Positions 52,279 through 64,000 of a stretch of DNA of 64,000 nt are shown in pieces. The DNA comes from a candidate division LCP-89 bacterium B3_LCP (lineage in GTDB: Bacteria; Electryoneota; B3-LCP). The position numbers were made by a program, and so were the translations under genes. The stretch's first letter is position 1. The number at the start of each line of letters is the position of its first letter. The stretch spans positions 1-64,000 of the forward strand of contig NJBN01000003.1 in NCBI GenBank assembly GCA_005223185.1. Direction: 5' to 3'. The notes beneath the pieces were generated by a model, which saw nothing but the letters and a program-made list of their open reading frames with translations, was not told where the DNA came from and did no database searches.

Positions 52279-52726
52279 GATTTATCCTCAGAGCTTTAGG
52301 GACACTCATCCCGGTTATACCCTCAGAACGGGCTGGCTATTACTTTGACGAACAGGATGATAAGATTCTTGACTAAGGAAAATCCGCAGGTGAGTCTGTT
52401 TTCCTGCGGAGAGATGGTTCCCGAACCGCGTTAGGAATTGCACTTTATATAACGGTGGGCGAATAGAATTTAATAAATCAGACGGAAGAAATCAAGGACT
52501 TAGAGGAAAAAAATTTGAGGGGTGAAAAATATAATACCTTAAATGAAAACTCTTCGGTAAGTTGTAACTTCAAGAAGAATAATTATCATTTTTTTATTGC
52601 ATTACTTAAAATTAGCCTTATATTTCATATTGATGAATTTTCCTGATAAATATGTCATATCAGGGCTCGGAACAGGCAGTCTTTAGATTTTCCATCGAAC
52701 CGGAAATTAATAAGAAGTATATCGGA
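52279..52726. other. Intergenic region with hairpin, start of duplicated segment
   Basis: It is the leader region between the hdrC-like gene (-) and the SGNH gene (+). An inverted pair CCGCAGG/CCTGCGG lies at 52384-52409. From about 52402 on the sequence is homologous to 55073 onwards. A TTGCAT, 16 bases, TATATT set near 52597-52624 may be the SGNH promoter; its counterpart lies near 55267-55294. A frame from the ATG at 52652 is open, but the paralogue has stops there. Confidence 0.5.
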
Positions 52727-54230
52727 ATGGGCAAGACTGGAATAGGCTATATACTTATAGGGATTCTGTTAATTGTTGTTGGTATAATTGGTAATGAATG
52801 GGTTCTCGCTCATAAAGTGAATCACTTTTCGTTCGATTTTGCGCGGTTATCGCGAATCGCAATACGATGCTGCCAATTGCTTTTCCTGGCAATTGGATTA
52901 TACTTAATATTCAGGAGCAGAGAAAAACTTGGCAATGACCTGAAGAATTTCGGTCTTCTCATTAGCTCGATGTTGTTATCTTTGATCCTCCTCGAAATTG
53001 CCTTAAGATTAATCACACCAAATACCGTTTTCCATCCCATTTTTGAACTGATCCCCTACCAGAAGGACATCATCCTCGTCGAGTTGCCGGGTGTGGCTGA
53101 TACAGTATATGCAAGCACCAATAAATGGGGTTTGCGAGGTGATCCCATCCCAGGTAATTGGGAAAATCTGACGAGCATCCTCATGATTGGTGGCAGCACC
53201 ACATATTGTATGTATTTATCGGATAATAAGACCTGGCCATATCTGTTACAGGATTTTCTTCGCCAGGACGATCCATCGGTGATTGTTCAGAACAGTGGGC
53301 ATGATGGTCACACAACTTACGCTCACCTGATCATGATGGAAGAAGTTGTCCCGGTAATCAAACCTAAAGTTGTAATTATGTTAGTGGGTGTAAACGATAT
53401 GCGAAAGGCCCTGCGCCAGGGTCGTCATAGGATTGTTAATCGATTGGAAGAATCCAGATCAATCTTTCGGCTGTACTCCTATTCGCGCACAGTTCAACTA
53501 GCATTAAAATGGTATCAGGTAATTATTAATAAAGTCCCTCTTGTTGACAAAATAGAATACACATTCACTATCAATCACCAACCTATACCAGTAGATGACA
53601 ATAAATCTGAACAGGATATTCTCGGAAGAGCAGAGTCCCTTACTGATGAGTTTCAAGTTCACCTCATCGAGATTATAAAGTGCGCACAAGCTTCTGGGAT
53701 AAAATTATTGTTCATAACTCAGCCAGGAATATACGATGATACCGAGTACTGGCAGGGTATAAGAGCTCAGTGGTCTTATGCGGAAAAAAATCAAGTCTTC
53801 AACTCAGCTGCAACTGAATCGAAAATACTTAATATTTTTAATCAAAAACTCATGAATATCTGTGAAAGTGAAGGTATCGCTTGTTTCGATTTAGCGTCCG
53901 CCGTTCCGCACAGCTCGGAATATTTCTATGACGATTACCACTTTAATGAATCCGGTGCAGAGTTTGTTGCTGAACAGATATATTCGTATATCAGAGAAAG
54001 CAATTTTATCAAAACAGCAAACCACTGAACTTAAGATTACTATATAATTTAAAAAGAATTAATCCACCTGTATAAGCCTTCGAAGTGTGGCTTTCATCCC
54101 CTATAACAACAAGGGTTACGAAATTATTCGCAATCCTTATTTATTTGCACTCTTTTCGGGTGACTGTTACTTCATCAGCACCATCTTGCCACTGATTTTG
54201 AAGTCACCGGCCTCAAGCAGGTAAACATAT
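52402..54230. repeat. Tandem duplicated segment, copy A
   Basis: Homologous along its whole length to 55073-56884 at an offset of about 2670 bases. It covers the upstream region, the SGNH gene, the downstream gap and the tail of a minus-strand cargo gene. Many substitutions and small indels show that the duplication is not recent. Confidence 0.85.
52727..54028 (+). CDS. Membrane-anchored SGNH/GDSL-like hydrolase, paralogue A
   Basis: 433 residues from the ATG at 52727. I chose this start because the paralogue at 55397 has the same length from the matching ATG and stops upstream of it. Three hydrophobic segments lie at about 6-25, 45-63 and 73-95. The rest is an SGNH hydrolase: the nucleophile motif reads IGGSTTYC with Ser157 (GGST instead of GDS), the Asn block is MLVGVNDM, and the Asp-His pair is Asp402 and His405 in DDYHFNESG. 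Such enzymes deacylate or acylate surface glycans or lipids. No polysaccharide genes are near, so the substrate is unknown. Confidence 0.83.
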   Translation: MGKTGIGYILIGILLIVVGIIGNEWVLAHKVNHFSFDFARLSRIAIRCCQLLFLAIGLYLIFRSREKLGNDLKNFGLLISSMLLSLILLEIALRLITPNTVFHPIFELIPYQKDIILVELPGVADTVYASTNKWGLRGDPIPGNWENLTSILMIGGSTTYCMYLSDNKTWPYLLQDFLRQDDPSVIVQNSGHDGHTTYAHLIMMEEVVPVIKPKVVIMLVGVNDMRKALRQGRHRIVNRLEESRSIFRLYSYSRTVQLALKWYQVIINKVPLVDKIEYTFTINHQPIPVDDNKSEQDILGRAESLTDEFQVHLIEIIKCAQASGIKLLFITQPGIYDDTEYWQGIRAQWSYAEKNQVFNSAATESKILNIFNQKLMNICESEGIACFDLASAVPHSSEYFYDDYHFNESGAEFVAEQIYSYIRESNFIKTANH

Positions 54231-55396: not shown

Positions 55397-56698
55397 ATGC
55401 ACGGGACAAAAACAGACTATAGACTTATAGGAATTCTGTTCATCGCTGTTGCTGTAATCTGCAACGAATGGATTCTCACGAATTTTCTGAATAACCCTTC
55501 GTTTGATACCGCACGGCTATTTCAAATCGTAATACGATGCTGCCAATTACTATTCCTGGTAATCGGATTGTGGCTAATATTCAGGAGGAAAGACAAACGT
55601 GGCAATGACCTGAAAAATTTCGGTCTTCTTATAGCCTCGATGTTGTTATCTTTGGTCCTCCTTGAAATTGCCTTAAGATTAATCACGCCAAACTCCGTTT
55701 TCCATCCCCTCTTTGAACTGATCCCCCATCAGAAGAACACCATTCACACCGATTTACCGGGTGTGGCTGATACAGTATATACAAGCACCAATAAATGGGG
55801 TTTGCGAGGTGATCCCATCCCAGATAATTGGGAGAGCCTGACAAGCATCCTCACGATTGGCGGTAGCACAACACATTGTATGTATTTATCGGATGATAAA
55901 ACCTGGTCATATCAATTACAAAAATTTCTTCGCCTGGACGATCAAACGGCGATTGTTCAGAACGGAGGGCGTGACGGTCACACAACTCATGCTCACCTGA
56001 TCATGATGGAAGAAGTCGTCCCGGTAATCAAGCCTAAAATTGTAATTATGTTAGTGGGTGTTAATGATCTGAATATCGCCGTACGCCGGGGCTATCAAGA
56101 GGTTGATAACCCATTTAAAAAATCTAAATTAATCTTTCAGCTGTACTCCTGTTCTCGAACAGTTCAATTAGCATTTAAATGGTATCAAATATTGGTTAAT
56201 AAGGTCCCTATTGTTGAAAATATAGACTACACCCACACTGTCAATTACCAGCCTATACCTATGGACGACAATAAACCTGAACAGGATTTTCTCAGTAGAG
56301 CAGAGTCTCTTACTAATGAGTTTCAGAATCACCTTATCGAAATTATAAAGATCGCAAAAGCTTCCGGGATAAAATTATTGTTCATGACGCAGCCGGCGCT
56401 ATACGATGATACCGATTACTGGAAGGGTATAAGAGCTCAGTGGTTTTATCCGGAAAAACATTCAATTGTCTTCTCAGCCGCAACCGAGTGGAAATTACTG
56501 GATATTTTAAATCGAAAGCTCATAAATATTTGCGAAAGTGAAGGCATCGCCTGTTTCGATTTAGCCTCCGCCATTCCGCATAGCTCGGAATATTTCTATG
56601 ACGATTACCACTTTAATGAACTCGGCGCAAAGTTTACTGCTGAACAGGTATATTCGTATATAAGAGAAAGTAATTTTATCAAATCAGCAACCCCATAA
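55397..56698 (+). CDS. Membrane-anchored SGNH/GDSL-like hydrolase, paralogue B
   Basis: 433 residues, same length as paralogue A, with AGGAAG upstream of the ATG. The three membrane segments, Ser157 (IGGSTTH), the MLVGVND block and Asp402/His405 (DDYHFNELG) are all kept, so the copy is likely active. Differences are spread along the gene and densest near the N-terminus and between residues about 225 and 290. The pair may have split substrates. Nearest homologues by pattern are GDSL-like lipases/acylhydrolases with N-terminal membrane anchors. Confidence 0.83.
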   Translation: MHGTKTDYRLIGILFIAVAVICNEWILTNFLNNPSFDTARLFQIVIRCCQLLFLVIGLWLIFRRKDKRGNDLKNFGLLIASMLLSLVLLEIALRLITPNSVFHPLFELIPHQKNTIHTDLPGVADTVYTSTNKWGLRGDPIPDNWESLTSILTIGGSTTHCMYLSDDKTWSYQLQKFLRLDDQTAIVQNGGRDGHTTHAHLIMMEEVVPVIKPKIVIMLVGVNDLNIAVRRGYQEVDNPFKKSKLIFQLYSCSRTVQLAFKWYQILVNKVPIVENIDYTHTVNYQPIPMDDNKPEQDFLSRAESLTNEFQNHLIEIIKIAKASGIKLLFMTQPALYDDTDYWKGIRAQWFYPEKHSIVFSAATEWKLLDILNRKLINICESEGIACFDLASAIPHSSEYFYDDYHFNELGAKFTAEQVYSYIRESNFIKSATP

Positions 56699-56897: not shown

Positions 56898-57494
56898 TCA
56901 CAACTGACTTTCCAGGAATAGAAGCACGCGAACCACACCCTGCCCTTCATCTACATAGGTTGCTTCTAAGGAATATTCCCCCATGTTGATTAGGACTTCA
57001 GACTTGCTTTCCAAGCATTTTTGCATTACTTCCGATTCTATGGGGAGAAGTTGGGCGGGATGGTTCCAGCCATCAGGAGACAGACGCGCTGTCAGTTGAT
57101 CGTTGTCGAAGATAGTCAACACACCCTGACGGTAGTTTAATCTGCGGCGAGCGATCACTTCATGGCTGGCATGAGCGAAGCGCTGCTTTAGTACCAGCAG
57201 CGTTTCGTGCACTAAGGGCTTGAATTCTATTTCAGGTAAGATAAGCTCTGCGGCTAAATTATTAGCGTCAGTTTCCTGCTGTCTCTCCTCGGTGTCATCA
57301 ACAGGTGGACATTGATGATGCTGCAATTGCAGGTGAGCTAATTCGTGACAGTAAGCCCAGTGCAACCGTTCGATTCGAAGTGATCGATCCAGGACGATAA
57401 CGTCCCCTATCAAATAAGATCGGCGACCATCTGGCACATCGGTTAGACGGTAGGGCGCGTTGTACTGCTTAGCTAAATCATCAAGAAAACTCAC
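56898..57494 (-). CDS. ImmA/IrrE family metallopeptidase
   Basis: 198 residues from a GTG at 57494 with GGAG six bases upstream; a TTG at 57569 is an alternative with 89 bases of overlap. The zinc motif HELAH is at 50-54, followed by the downstream acidic ligand in QETDANNLAAELILP. The family cleaves partner XRE repressors in response to DNA damage or mobile element signals (ImmA of ICEBs1, IrrE of Deinococcus). The C-terminal part (about 120-198) is a further domain of unknown role. The gene overlaps its XRE partner by 14 bases. The pair could control a nearby integrated element or a stress regulon. Confidence 0.88.
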   Translation of the reverse strand: MSFLDDLAKQYNAPYRLTDVPDGRRSYLIGDVIVLDRSLRIERLHWAYCHELAHLQLQHHQCPPVDDTEERQQETDANNLAAELILPEIEFKPLVHETLLVLKQRFAHASHEVIARRRLNYRQGVLTIFDNDQLTARLSPDGWNHPAQLLPIESEVMQKCLESKSEVLINMGEYSLEATYVDEGQGVVRVLLFLESQL

Positions 57495-57948
57495 CCTCGT
57501 CTCCGGAATTCGCCTTCTCCTCTCCCCTATTCTCTCCACTATTTCTGCGGTACTCAAAGAGGGCTTCAACGAAAAACTGCTTGGACGGCTTGAACCGATC
57601 CAGGAAACGGATGCTCTTTAACAGCTCGATCTCTTCCGGGGTGGGTTTCATCAGAAGCCTGGTTCGTTCATCATCCAGCATTGCCTGCAATCCCGGATAC
57701 ATAACGGAATCTGCCGTCACTTCGTAGTAAGGATCCGGTTCACGGGCTGCGGTTGTTTCCGGAATCAACGAAGCAGGATCCATGCCCAAAGCATGTGCGA
57801 TTCTGTTTAAAACTTCCAGAGTGGGACTGCTGTGTCCGTTTTCTAACTGCGACAGATAAGTACGGTTAATACTTGCCGATGCAGCGAGTTCTTCCTGGCT
57901 TAATTGCGCCTTGACTCTGGCTTGACGGATATGAGGACCGATATTCAT
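57481..57948 (-). CDS. XRE family transcriptional regulator
   Basis: 155 residues. The helix-turn-helix is at about 5-62 (IRQARVKAQLSQEELAASA, INRTYLSQLENG, SPTLEVLNRIAHALGM). The C-terminal half (about 95-150) is helical and charged, likely for dimerisation and for cleavage by the ImmA partner. It is the first gene of the pair. A consensus promoter lies 45 bases upstream and faces away from another promoter, so the protein probably represses both, as in CI/Cro-like switches. RBS: AGAGGTG. Confidence 0.9.
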   Translation of the reverse strand: MNIGPHIRQARVKAQLSQEELAASASINRTYLSQLENGHSSPTLEVLNRIAHALGMDPASLIPETTAAREPDPYYEVTADSVMYPGLQAMLDDERTRLLMKPTPEEIELLKSIRFLDRFKPSKQFFVEALFEYRRNSGENRGEEKANSGDEGEFS

Positions 57949-58448: not shown

Positions 58449-58664
58449 CAAAAGACCTATTTTCACTTATTAATATAACACAATAAAATTAGTAAGTCAA
58501 GTAGAATAATAAAAAATTGCTTTTTGTAAAGTATTGTAATAACTAATAATACAAAACGGTCATGATAACTGTCAATAATAAGTTCGCAGATTGTTGAAGA
58601 AAAACTGGAAGATTTTCACAAGAATAAGGGAGACCAAATGGATAACCAAACAACAGGAGGAAGC

Positions 58665-59075
58665 ATGAGTAAACTGGCAACGGCTGAAGTTGTACGAAAG
58701 ATCGGATTGGGCGACGTCGATCTGGATGAAATTTCGGAAGTACTGCGGACTTCGGAACTGGCAATCAAGTCCTACCGCAACGAAGTGGAGAGCTTGCGCC
58801 GGAATGAAGAGGATCTAAAGCGAAGCTATGAAGAGGAGCAGAAGGCGGTGGATGATCTAACCAAACGGTTAGCAACTATCCACGAAGATAACCGCTTAGC
58901 CCGGGAAGTGTTCTGCGCGGAGATCGAAGGGAGAAAAGAAATCCTGGGCGTGCCATCCAGCCTGGATCTTGAGGCGCTCGATATGTGCTCACTTATCAAC
59001 GAACGCGAGAACGTACAACGCCTGGTGAACAAGACTTTCAAAGGAAACAGAGGGGAAGCGGGATCGCATCCTTAG
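58665..59075 (+). CDS. Coiled-coil hypothetical protein
   Basis: 136 residues from the ATG at 58665, which follows AGGAGGA. An ATG at 58638 in the same frame has its own GGGAG, so a form nine residues longer is possible. Residues about 30-85 predict a coiled coil (RNEVESLRRNEEDLKRSYEEEQKAVDDLTKRLATI). The rest is charged, with two Cys. No known family is recognised. It could belong to the accessory segment that begins with the xre-immA pair. A MITE-like element lies 18 bases after its stop. Confidence 0.6.
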   Translation: MSKLATAEVVRKIGLGDVDLDEISEVLRTSELAIKSYRNEVESLRRNEEDLKRSYEEEQKAVDDLTKRLATIHEDNRLAREVFCAEIEGRKEILGVPSSLDLEALDMCSLINERENVQRLVNKTFKGNRGEAGSHP

Positions 59076-59961: not shown

Positions 59962-61836
59962 TCACTTCACCAGCAGCATCTGCTGGGAAACAACGCCGCC
60001 ATCATATTCCAGAACAGCGAAATAGACTCCCGAACTATGATTCGAACCGTCAAAACGGAAACTGTAGGAACCCGGTTGGTATTTTCCATTAATCACTGTG
60101 GCAACCTTTTGCCCAGAGACGTTGAAAATAGTTAGAGACAGGTCTGTGGATTCGCTTAGGCTCAAAGAGATTTCTGTGGAAGGATTGAAGGGATTGGGAT
60201 AAATCTGAAGCAGTTGATAATCATCAGGAACTGAATCTTCAGTTAACAGGGTTGGCGTTCCAGCAAACAACCCGGAAGCTGATTTGGTAAAAATCAAGCT
60301 ATCCGATGTGATAATGGTATTTGGGTAGGATCCTAAGTATAAAATCATGTAGTAGTCTCCGGCTGGAGCGCCTGCAGGTATCGTCTGCGAAAGACCATCA
60401 CGCTGCACCGATCCCCCTGGAGCTAGAATCAGGTCTTCGCGTAATATAGTGGGACCGAAGAGACTGCCATCCGGCAGCCTGATCATTATCCAGCCATCGA
60501 CGGTGACGCTCGATCCACCGGAGTTCTCAATCAGGACGTCATAGAGGAAGTTCCCGCCAGCAGCGGGTATGACGATAGGCGGATTTTGCGCTGAAATCGA
60601 TGCCGAAACTGAAGGCGCGCCCTGATCGAAATAAAAAGCGCCAATATCGGCAATTGTGGCATCAGGATCAAGGGGACTCCCAGGATCACCGGCGTCAATG
60701 CAGGGTGAGCCAGCGGTCAAATAGTAATCTCGAAGGGGCTGATCGGCATATTGAGGATCCAGAAAGATGTTGAAGTAATCATCACAGGGATCATTGTTGG
60801 CATTCACCGCGGTGATCTGACCTGCTCCCGGAGGCGTGTTGCCGGCGAAATTATCGCCTTCATTATTCCAGAGATCATTATAGCTTATAGAATTGTTTGA
60901 GGTCGAGCCAACGAAAATTGCGTTGGGCCCGTGATTGTTAGTCACTGCACAGTTCTTAAGATCCAGGAAAGAATCACGGGAAATATGGATTGCACCACCT
61001 GAATTTGAGGTGTTATTATCATCCAAGGTGCAGTTTTGCACCAACCCGCTGGTCCATTTAAGCATGATAGCGCCGCCCTGGTTGGACGTGGAGTTATCAT
61101 AGCAGACACAACGACTGACAACGCTTCCGCTGGAACTCACCAAACCGATAGCGCCACCAGATAAACCTGCGTAGTTTTGCGTGAAGATACAACCTTCCAC
61201 AGTGACAACAGCAGTCTGAGTTGAGACACCTCCGCCTTTTCCGCGAATCGTATTTTCTGCACGATTACCTTCGAAATAAGAGTCAACCACATTGCCAGAA
61301 GCATTTTCAAAGTAGATTCCACCGCCATGTTGTTCCGCCAAATTGTTCAGAAATTCGCACTCGCTGATTTCAACTGAAGCGCCGTCCAGCGCGTGAATTC
61401 CGGCGCCCATCATTGCTTCGTTATCGGTAATCGTAGAATTTTCGACGACCAATTCAGGCGCCGAGCATTCTATTCCACTGGAACTACTGCTGGTGATAAG
61501 ACAGAACCCAAGTTCACATGAACCTGAGACCGCTATATCGATCCCTTCCCAGGCGGTAACTCCGGAATTAGGTAAAAATTTGATGCTGTCCCCTTCTGTG
61601 CCAATGCTTAAGAGTGTTCCGAAGATATCGAACCGAAACGGTCCATCGAAGAAAAATTCAGCGCCTGGTTCGATCAATAGTGTATCTCCAACCGAGACGG
61701 ATAGATTGCCGGTTACGATGTAGGTATCTAGGGAAAGCGTGCCACTCTGAGGTCCGGAGATAAAAGTTTGCGCGGATAGATTACCAACTGCAGTAGTTAT
61801 GAAGATAATTAATATTAATGTATTTGTGATTCGCAT
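59962..61836 (-). CDS. Secreted beta-helix protein with T9SS sorting domain
   Basis: 624 residues from the ATG at 61836, chosen because TGGAGT lies upstream and the signal peptide (MRITNTLILIIFITTAVGNLSAQ) starts there. The body has an entry domain (SGPQSGTLSLDTYIVTGNLSVSVGDTLLIEPGA), parallel beta-helix coils (GGGIYF, GGGVSTQ, GGAIGLVSS, GGAIMLKWTS) at about 130-340, and the shared Ig-like module (about 415-525; NPPIVIPAAGGNF, PAGAPAGDYYMI). The sorting domain is of a slightly different kind, ending QQMLLVK. No catalytic motif is seen. It stands back to back with the capsid gene. Confidence 0.82.
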   Translation of the reverse strand: MRITNTLILIIFITTAVGNLSAQTFISGPQSGTLSLDTYIVTGNLSVSVGDTLLIEPGAEFFFDGPFRFDIFGTLLSIGTEGDSIKFLPNSGVTAWEGIDIAVSGSCELGFCLITSSSSSGIECSAPELVVENSTITDNEAMMGAGIHALDGASVEISECEFLNNLAEQHGGGIYFENASGNVVDSYFEGNRAENTIRGKGGGVSTQTAVVTVEGCIFTQNYAGLSGGAIGLVSSSGSVVSRCVCYDNSTSNQGGAIMLKWTSGLVQNCTLDDNNTSNSGGAIHISRDSFLDLKNCAVTNNHGPNAIFVGSTSNNSISYNDLWNNEGDNFAGNTPPGAGQITAVNANNDPCDDYFNIFLDPQYADQPLRDYYLTAGSPCIDAGDPGSPLDPDATIADIGAFYFDQGAPSVSASISAQNPPIVIPAAGGNFLYDVLIENSGGSSVTVDGWIMIRLPDGSLFGPTILREDLILAPGGSVQRDGLSQTIPAGAPAGDYYMILYLGSYPNTIITSDSLIFTKSASGLFAGTPTLLTEDSVPDDYQLLQIYPNPFNPSTEISLSLSESTDLSLTIFNVSGQKVATVINGKYQPGSYSFRFDGSNHSSGVYFAVLEYDGGVVSQQMLLVK

Positions 61837-61892
61837 GATAAACTCCATTAATAGCTGTTTTATACCATAATTACGCAAACAACGACCGGTTG

Positions 61893-61999: not shown

Positions 62000-63076
62000 A
62001 TGAGTTTGGATTACTCACAGGCTGAAAGCCTGAAACAAACCATCGTACGGCATTCGAGAGCCGGGGATCTTTCGCTCTATTCAGAAGCACAGGAACGCGA
62101 TCTGACGCTTTCGGAACTACTGGAAGAACTGGACCCGACGCCTCGAAGCGCCAACGGCAACCCGGCAGGGCAGTTTGACGCTTTCGAGCGCCAGATGCTG
62201 GTTATGGGACTCAACGGAAGCGGGCGCAGATCCATCACTGTCGAGGACTTCTACTTGGGCGGCGGACTGATTCTCCTGCCGGAATATATCCAGCGTGAAA
62301 TCCAGCGCGGTTATCGCCTGGTGCAGGATCCGCAGGAACTACTGGCTGCGTCAGTAGCAGTTAACGTACCGTCGGTCAAGCCTATCTACATCAAGATGGA
62401 TGGCGCCAAGGAGAGCTTCGCCAAGCGTTCTGATGGAGCCGCCTACCCCACGGTTCAGCTTCTTTACAGAGAGAAGGAAGCCGATATCGTTGACAAGGGA
62501 CGCAGCTTCGATTTCTCCTACAAGGTGATCAGAGGACAGAGGTTAGATGAATTCAAGGTATTCCTCTGGTGGATCGGAGCGCAATTGGCGTATGATGAAA
62601 TCGATGACATCTACGACGTAATCATCAACGGTGATGGTACCAGTCCCGGCGCTGCTGACGTTTTCAACGGTGCTGGAGGAACCTGGGCTTATTCCGATAT
62701 GGTACACCTGGCGATGTCCTTCGACGTACCATCGCAGATGACGCATGTCCTGGGCACCAGAGATGACATCGAGACCATCCTGAACCTGACTCAATACCAG
62801 GATCCGGATACCTGGCATGCTGCGGAACTGTTCAGCAAGCAGGGACGCTATCAGGGTCTGCTGCCCATGAATGCCAAACTGGTAGTTGCACCCAACGCAA
62901 CTGCAACCGAATTCGCAGCGTTGGACAGCCGCTTCGCCATCCGTGAATCGGTAGCGCAGCCACTGATGATCGAAGCGGAAAAAGTCATTTCACAGAAACT
63001 TGAAACTGCGGTGATTTCCAAAGAATCAGTTTACACCATCATGGTGGATGACGCCATGAAATCTTCGGATTACTAA
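62000..63076 (+). CDS. Phage-like major capsid protein (HK97 fold type)
   Basis: 358 residues, ATG after AGGAGG. The order of features fits HK97-type capsid proteins: a charged N-terminal arm (about 1-75), an E-loop-like beta region (about 120-165; KPIYIKMDGAKESFAKRSDGA), a long spine-like helix (about 175-205; RLDEFKVFLWWIGAQLAYDEIDD) followed by INGDG, and a beta-rich A-domain (LVVAPNATATEFAAL, MIEAEKVISQKLETAVIS). No protease, portal or terminase gene precedes it in the window. It could belong to a prophage, a gene-transfer-agent-like particle or an encapsulin-type shell. The first two are favoured because of the following genes. Confidence 0.72.
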   Translation: MSLDYSQAESLKQTIVRHSRAGDLSLYSEAQERDLTLSELLEELDPTPRSANGNPAGQFDAFERQMLVMGLNGSGRRSITVEDFYLGGGLILLPEYIQREIQRGYRLVQDPQELLAASVAVNVPSVKPIYIKMDGAKESFAKRSDGAAYPTVQLLYREKEADIVDKGRSFDFSYKVIRGQRLDEFKVFLWWIGAQLAYDEIDDIYDVIINGDGTSPGAADVFNGAGGTWAYSDMVHLAMSFDVPSQMTHVLGTRDDIETILNLTQYQDPDTWHAAELFSKQGRYQGLLPMNAKLVVAPNATATEFAALDSRFAIRESVAQPLMIEAEKVISQKLETAVISKESVYTIMVDDAMKSSDY

Positions 63077-63126
63077 TAGTGAATCATCACCACACCAAAG
63101 TATATCACATTGGAAAGAGGTAGCTT

Positions 63127-63498
63127 ATGCCTTTAAATCCAACAGAAAATTACCTGCGTGAAAGACGCAACTGCACACTGATGAATTTCGCTGAAGTCGT
63201 AACGACCAATAACCGTTATCTCAAAGGACCGGGCGGGTATTCCGGTGATGGTTACCCCATGCCTGCGCCCGGGAAGATACTCCGGCTGAAGGTTTATGAC
63301 GACACTTCTGTGCAAAGTTCATCCGCAGAATCCAGTTTTAATGCTGGAGACCGGATTTCAGTGATAGCGGAATATGACCAGCCCTGGTTCGACGTTACCG
63401 TTCAGATTAACGGCGTCAATTCCGCTACCTATTGTAACATGGTGCAGGTGAACTGCACCTTGCGGGCTTCAGTGTTGTTGCGGCTGGACGTTTATTAA
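63127..63498 (+). CDS. Unknown protein in the capsid module
   Basis: 123 residues, ATG after AGAGG. It is beta-rich with no signal peptide and three cysteines (one near residue 16, then TYCNM and VNCTL). I do not recognise the family. It lies 50 bases after the capsid gene and 107 before the DUF2190-like gene, so it is probably a minor head or decoration protein. Confidence 0.6.
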   Translation: MPLNPTENYLRERRNCTLMNFAEVVTTNNRYLKGPGGYSGDGYPMPAPGKILRLKVYDDTSVQSSSAESSFNAGDRISVIAEYDQPWFDVTVQINGVNSATYCNMVQVNCTLRASVLLRLDVY

Positions 63499-63541
63499 GC
63501 GTGCATTTGCAGTCAGGTAAACAACTAAACAAAAGTCAAAT

Positions 63542-63577
63542 GGCAGCCTGTCCCAAAGGCACTTTGAACGGGCTGCC
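63542..63577 (+). promoter_or_regulatory. Hairpin between capsid-module genes
   Basis: GGCAGCC and GGCTGCC form a 7-bp stem around a loop of about 22 bases, before the strong AGGAGG at 63594. It may act as a partial terminator or processing site that sets expression between head genes. Confidence 0.45.
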
Positions 63578-63605
63578 GCCCCTTGATACATAAAGGAGGA
63601 AAACA

Positions 63606-64000
63606 ATGTCAAGTCAATTCATAGTAGATAACCAGGGAGTGGGCATGCACCCCACCCTGACCATGAAGGTCGATACCAGCACCAACAAGGATTTCTCTCA
63701 AGTCGATATCGACAACAACCTCACCGCCTGCATCATATCAGATGACAACGAGGTAGGTATGGGCACCAACGGTAGTAAGCTTTTCGGTAAAGTCGTTGCC
63801 GTTTCTTCTGAGGTTGACGGCAATGGAATTCCGGCCACTTGTACTGTACAAGCCGGCGGCGTCGCTCGCTTCAAGTACAACACCGGTGCAGCTCCATCCG
63901 TGAACCAGATGGTGGAGGTTGACGGCGCTGGCAAAGTGCGCCAAGCTTCTGCTGCTGCCAGCATCCCCGCCGGTGGTCACGTCTGCCGTGGCCAGGTCAT
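63606..64000 (+). CDS. DUF2190-like capsid cement protein (partial)
   Basis: 131 residues are visible, running off the right edge. The ATG follows AGGAGG by six bases. The sequence is small-residue rich with repeating beta turns (GSKLFGKVVAVSSEVDGNGIPATCTVQAGGVARFKY, VDGAGKVRQASAAASIPAGG), which resembles the DUF2190 family of phage capsid cement or decoration proteins. This supports a head-assembly role for the module. Confidence 0.6.
   Translation, partial: MSSQFIVDNQGVGMHPTLTMKVDTSTNKDFSQVDIDNNLTACIISDDNEVGMGTNGSKLFGKVVAVSSEVDGNGIPATCTVQAGGVARFKYNTGAAPSVNQMVEVDGAGKVRQASAAASIPAGGHVCRGQV

Follow-up and report, generated by a model that had tools for sequence, protein, structure and literature searches.

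Capsid genes at the edge of the window and head genes beyond it

The window, that is, the whole 64,000-nucleotide stretch of DNA analysed here, is the left end of a 432,658-bp contig (C16) and shares its numbering. The contig belongs to a genome of 3.79 Mb that is 96% complete (G000) and the data are MAGs throughout. The host phylum, Ca. Electryoneota/LCP-89 in the FCB group, is represented by 39 genomes and has eight families with the genes described below; NCBI places Hatepunaea within Candidatus Electryoneota and keeps LCP-89 as a separate phylum, both in the FCB group, and the classification used here merges them. Towards its right edge the window holds the following genes:

56898-57569, minus strand: IrrE/ImmA-type metallopeptidase (M78), a candidate regulator (Peptidase_M78, E 7e-8) whose membership is suggested by its neighbourhood
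57481-57948, minus strand: XRE-type, repressor-like candidate regulator (Pfam HTH_3, E 2e-15), its role being putative
58638-59075, plus strand: 145-aa coiled-coil protein, scaffold candidate
59962-61878, minus strand: gene with a T9SS sorting domain (Por_Secre_tail, E 1e-9), left of the capsid gene
62000-63076, plus strand: major head (capsid) protein of 358 aa, HK97-type by family
63127-63498, plus strand: beta-rich 123-aa protein adjoining the capsid gene
63606-64046, plus strand: cement/decoration protein (phrog_4588), the last 46 bases of its gene lying outside the window

The initial annotation saw a major capsid-like gene at 62000, and profile searches agree, with a match to the PHROG 3922 'major head protein' at E 1e-46 and one to Pfam Phage_capsid_4 at E 4e-8, which exceeds the cut-off of that model. 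The AlphaFold model of the protein, made from a seven-row alignment, has a pLDDT of 39, too low to be of use, and a sequence-level comparison of the capsid and portal profiles with solved structures gave no credible match. The gene that follows, described earlier as beta-rich and unfamiliar, is both conserved (32 genomes have it beside the capsid gene) and without a credible family match in Pfam and PHROG profile searches. For the third gene, which had been called a DUF2190-like cement gene, the second half of the name holds (PHROG 4588 virion structural protein, E 4e-6; present in 32 genomes), whereas for the first the DUF2190-type Pfam model Phage_cement_2 gives a match below threshold at E 0.13. 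The strong ribosome sites noticed at the outset are there as well, in the form of purine-rich motifs (AGGAGG, AGAGG, AAAGGAGG) ahead of the start codons of the three genes, and the group does start after the T9SS gene on the opposite strand. The scaffold candidate was assigned from its position and size alone; its homologs lie upstream of the capsid gene in three relatives (L031, L033, L034), in which the M78 gene also adjoins the scaffold-like gene, and families f1 and f5 have homologs of the XRE gene adjacent to their head clusters. A profile comparison of the scaffold candidates of different families gave no sequence link among them. Further to the left, at 52652-54028 and 55397-56698 on the plus strand, lie tandem paralogs for membrane-anchored, SGNH-hydrolase-like proteins with a GGSTT motif.

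The capsid genes had been described as beginning without terminase, portal or protease. This is correct for the window and incorrect for the contig, which carries the remaining head and packaging genes to the right, all of them intact:

66625-67479, plus strand: connector-like gene
70698-71135, plus strand: small terminase (TerS) candidate
71132-72484, plus strand: terminase large subunit (TerL; phrog_2, E 4e-29; T4 gp17, E 3e-18), with its catalytic residues
110235-111509, plus strand: portal (profile E 1e-175)
115932-116675, plus strand: maturation protease (profile E 3e-94; phage head maturation protease, E 5e-8), with invariant GH and S

The head-assembly and packaging gene set is complete and the catalytic residues of TerL are intact, its Walker and nuclease residues being invariant from G000 through distant families. 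A relative of the portal in L040 matches phrog_3753 with E 1e-29, and a Foldseek search with the connector model returned weak matches to phage baseplate and tail proteins, all with TM below 0.25. Such a gene set bears directly on the suggestion, also made in the initial annotation, that the capsid could form a compartment shell of the encapsulin type. Shells of this kind need no portal, terminase, protease or cement, and all four are conserved here alongside the capsid; with portal, terminase and maturation protease intact, a compartment shell does not fit, and we find it barely credible in spite of the HK97-type capsid kept by the host, which is what would speak for it.

The head genes of G000 stand one by one among host genes, spread across 58 kb, and the genes that intervene are mostly host genes on the minus strand, among them T9SS cargo, PEPCK, dCTP deaminase and an MFS transporter, so that there is no contiguous mobile unit. 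Reading the contig beyond 64000 yielded the portal and terminase genes but no recognisable tail genes, and dispersed genes instead of a complete ordinary prophage starting just to the right. No integrase or replication gene was noticed among the ORFs read near the head genes, and no gene for a tail tube, tape measure, injection or receptor binding was recognised in the phylum. The intervals contain other elements too: an MNT/HepT toxin-antitoxin pair at 64282-64912 of the contig, between the cement and connector genes, and at 69150-70339, between connector and terminase, a methyltransferase fragment and an HNH protein that look like a broken restriction system. A 14-mer found upstream of both portal and protease, AAAAGTCAATACCC, was considered as an operator of the module and rejected as module-specific because it has near copies elsewhere (at 95067 and 97703, in a stretch that holds almost only minus-strand genes) and reads as a minus-strand TTGACT -35 box.

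Gene order and inheritance within the phylum

Other families of the phylum keep all head genes together in a compact cluster (L040, L041, L045, L046), with the order small coiled-coil or other short protein, cement, capsid, 123-aa protein, connector, TerL, portal and protease, and behind them genes for secreted and for membrane proteins; amidase and holin-like genes are present in some of these clusters. The family of the window has nearly the same order over its 58 kb, the sole difference being that the cement gene comes after the capsid and 123-aa genes. Since compact clusters with this order exist in other families, the arrangement in the window's family can be read as an exploded version of them. 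The proposal that the capsid genes are the right part of a rearranged prophage is wrong in the form in which it was made, the remaining head genes lying rightward, scattered but on the strand and in nearly the order of compact relatives. The portal-MFS-protease neighbourhood is syntenic between G000 and its relative G001; in G005 the capsid, portal, TerL and protease genes are each on a separate contig, the head genes of G001 and G004 are likewise on different contigs, and families f3 and f4 are stretched as well, to lesser degrees. With regard to the genes behind the head set, the protease is directly followed in L040, L045, L046 and L128-L131 by at least one protein with a signal-peptide-like start, and one such protein has LamG and apparent beta-helix parts. 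Signal-peptide-like starts are unusual among phage virion genes, and these secreted proteins may have surface or release functions.

The head genes are present in nearly every genome of the phylum and always as single copies: capsid in 34 of 39, portal in 33, protease in 35 and TerL in 33. In each of the gene trees (capsid, portal, protease, connector and TerL) every host family with several members forms a split, and the distances follow those of RpoB, with Mantel r of 0.94, 0.85, 0.83, 0.88 and 0.81, respectively, a correlation reached in 0 of 999 permutations for each of the five genes and in 0-1 of 999 when permuting was done within families. Median within-family dN/dS ranges from 0.07 to 0.41, compared with 0.05 to 0.07 for RpoB, values that are rough because dS is near saturation. 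The head genes thus show vertical descent, purifying selection, conserved order and single copy number, and of the readings first offered for this locus it is the domesticated particle that near-universal presence, congruence with the RpoB tree and low dN/dS bear out. Ordinary prophages behave differently in the same genomes, the tape-measure family PF10145 being sporadic (8 of 39 genomes, and absent from G000) as against the 33-35 of 39 for the head genes. Another tape-measure profile, phrog_167, was uninformative: it matched every genome and 14 of 14 controls, for the most part through a single stretch of about 80 model positions.

The exceptions are few. G017, which is 97% complete, has no capsid, portal, protease or TerL gene, in what looks like a true loss, whereas the partial absences in G016, G034 and G035 may be assembly gaps. 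The capsid gene of G001 (L034) contains a single nonsense codon, from an assembly error or a recent loss. Both the empty G017 and this codon were counted against the GTA-like reading developed below, as was the lack of recognised tail, injection or receptor-binding genes in the phylum. The codon, together with the scattering of the genes among host genes, could also be taken as a sign of an ancient prophage in decay whose genes persist by chance, yet near-universal intact single copies in eight families, invariant catalytic residues, dN/dS well below 1 and orthologous synteny leave this explanation with hardly any probability.

Relatives in a second phylum and among phages

The module has relatives outside the phylum. 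Our first survey included 22 genomes of other phyla, and one of them (G046) has a capsid that is 37% identical. In the phylum of G046, referred to here as the second phylum, 102 of 119 genomes have a single capsid gene (74 of the 79 good ones), with distances that again follow RpoB (Mantel r 0.82, 0/999). The second-phylum cluster is compact and conserved (L224-L237), and consists of portal, a different TerL, protease, a membrane coiled-coil protein, a scaffold-like protein, cement and capsid, and then of a 470-aa propeller-like protein, connector, 123-aa protein, secreted proteins, an endopeptidase-like protein and a small membrane protein. The terminases belong to distinct lineages, with a GNRWGKS Walker A motif in L224-L237 and KSRQMM in L002, whereas the two phyla share homologous genes for portal, capsid, connector and protease; a replacement of the terminase between the phyla is possible, judging from these motifs. 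The profile of the second-phylum neck protein, run against the window's phylum, found no conserved counterpart there. Among 386 genomes surveyed, the capsid was detected in no more than 13 that lie outside the window's phylum, three of these being second-phylum genomes, which indicates that it is not a general bacterial gene. Distant capsid homologs from other phyla were observed in G184, G330, G464 (f54), G210, G299, G435, G352, G295, G423 and G431.

By comparison, phages are distant. The nearest records from phages reach only 21-31% identity to the capsid, portal and protease, and a scan of the 2.9 million contigs of IMG/VR gave only two close relatives, L238 and L239, which have most of the head set between bacterial-looking flanks and, filed as viral, look like pieces of chromosome that carry the module. 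Enterococcus phage fHoEfm07 resembles the module in having a homologous portal and maturation protease and a head protein that also falls into phrog_3922; it differs in being a free siphovirus-type phage with tape measure and Dit, and its identity to the module is only 23-26%. The occurrence of these homologs in a siphovirus genome supports the names given to the genes. Could the module then be an active phage or prophage lineage that co-diversifies with its hosts? All of its genes derive from tailed phages, and related siphoviruses exist. However, head genes that are spread between host genes across 58 kb (G000) or sit on different contigs (G001, G004 and G005) cannot be excised as a unit, the nearest phage records are as distant as stated above, and the only two close IMG/VR relatives are both chromosome-like, which makes such a lineage very improbable.

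A gene transfer agent-like reading

These genes, we think, probably constitute a phage head-and-packaging module that was domesticated and is inherited vertically, that is, a GTA-like viriform. GTAs are recognized by proteins of caudoviricete origin, full endogenization, often at several loci, and mostly vertical inheritance, and further by the packaging of mostly random host DNA, a head smaller than the GTA genome and delivery to other cells (PMC9662315). In the module, capsid, portal, protease, TerL and cement match phage families; the genes are chromosomal, whether spread out as in G000 or divided among contigs as in the three relatives; and host families are recovered with Mantel r of 0.81-0.94. 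As the properties present are the three that sequence can show, we use the term GTA-like and do not speak of a proven GTA.

A system of this type would operate as follows. Scaffold, capsid, cement and maturation protease would build a procapsid on the portal, the terminase would pump DNA into the head, and the connector-like protein would close the neck. Because the separate loci of the window's family cannot move as one unit, the packaged DNA would be host chromosome, and packaging of the module itself as a unit is implausible given this dispersed layout. The XRE/ImmA-type pair at 56898-57948, which adjoins the scaffold-like gene and is conserved in the family, would be a plausible switch; release would take place by lysis, as the amidase and holin-like genes of some compact clusters suggest; and the DNA could then reach other cells. 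More tentatively, one may envisage a functional GTA in FCB-group phyla that has a very short tail or none and whose domestication preceded the diversification of the window's phylum and possibly its split from the second one. In one family its head genes would have become dispersed as host-like singles and yet work as a regulon. We lean against this fuller scenario while taking it as a serious possibility. The head might also have been domesticated to package DNA with no transfer at all, for example as an inhibitory particle, or as one without a tail that serves to store or release extracellular DNA. The retention of the packaging enzymes would be in keeping with this, and so would the lack of recognised tail or receptor genes in the window's phylum, but the amidase, holin-like and secreted LamG-type genes of compact clusters are harder to accommodate, as is the 470-aa propeller-like gene that occupies the neck position of second-phylum clusters and would suit a short tail. 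We regard a particle of this kind as unlikely.

Dispersal as such has a parallel in Rickettsiales, where Lang and Beatty reportedly described in 2007 GTA homologs dispersed in the chromosome; these scattered genes are like those of the window's family in their layout and belong to a different gene lineage. RcGTA-like GTAs (Rhodogtaviriformidae) share with the module, as far as their description goes, head genes of caudoviricete origin, inheritance with the host and a distribution over several loci, five in the case of RcGTA (PMC9662315), but they are found in Alphaproteobacteria, and in the module no long-tail genes were recognised and the head genes are singly dispersed in the window's family. 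FpGTA of Faecalibacterium is podovirus-like, has two loci about 125 kb apart and lysis genes, and is near-ubiquitous in its genus (PMC12946183). Going by the published description, it appears nearest in spirit among known systems, both having head and packaging genes with no obvious long tail at more than one locus (PMC12946183); FpGTA belongs to one genus of Bacillota, whereas the module extends to a whole phylum and, in related form, to a second one. The GTA gene sets known from groups other than Alphaproteobacteria are few (PMC12946183), and searches of open-access literature turned up none described from these phyla. The module would add another lineage of GTA-like viriforms, one whose genes stand singly in the window's family and which spans nearly all genomes of one candidate phylum. 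It would allow one to test for how long domesticated particles are retained and whether they owe this to gene exchange. Systems of this sort may escape notice: at least two 'viral' contigs of IMG/VR appear to be fragments of the module, and a prophage finder that seeks clusters would probably overlook genes scattered singly as they are in the window's family.

A minor observation concerns the protease of the second phylum. The L225 gene (6983-9187) joins a prohead protease to a domain of ATP-dependent DNA ligases (PF01068, E 4e-30), behind which lies a stretch resembling a LigD-type phosphoesterase, and several further second-phylum loci also have a long protease gene. This odd pairing of ligase and protease might act on packaged or delivered DNA.
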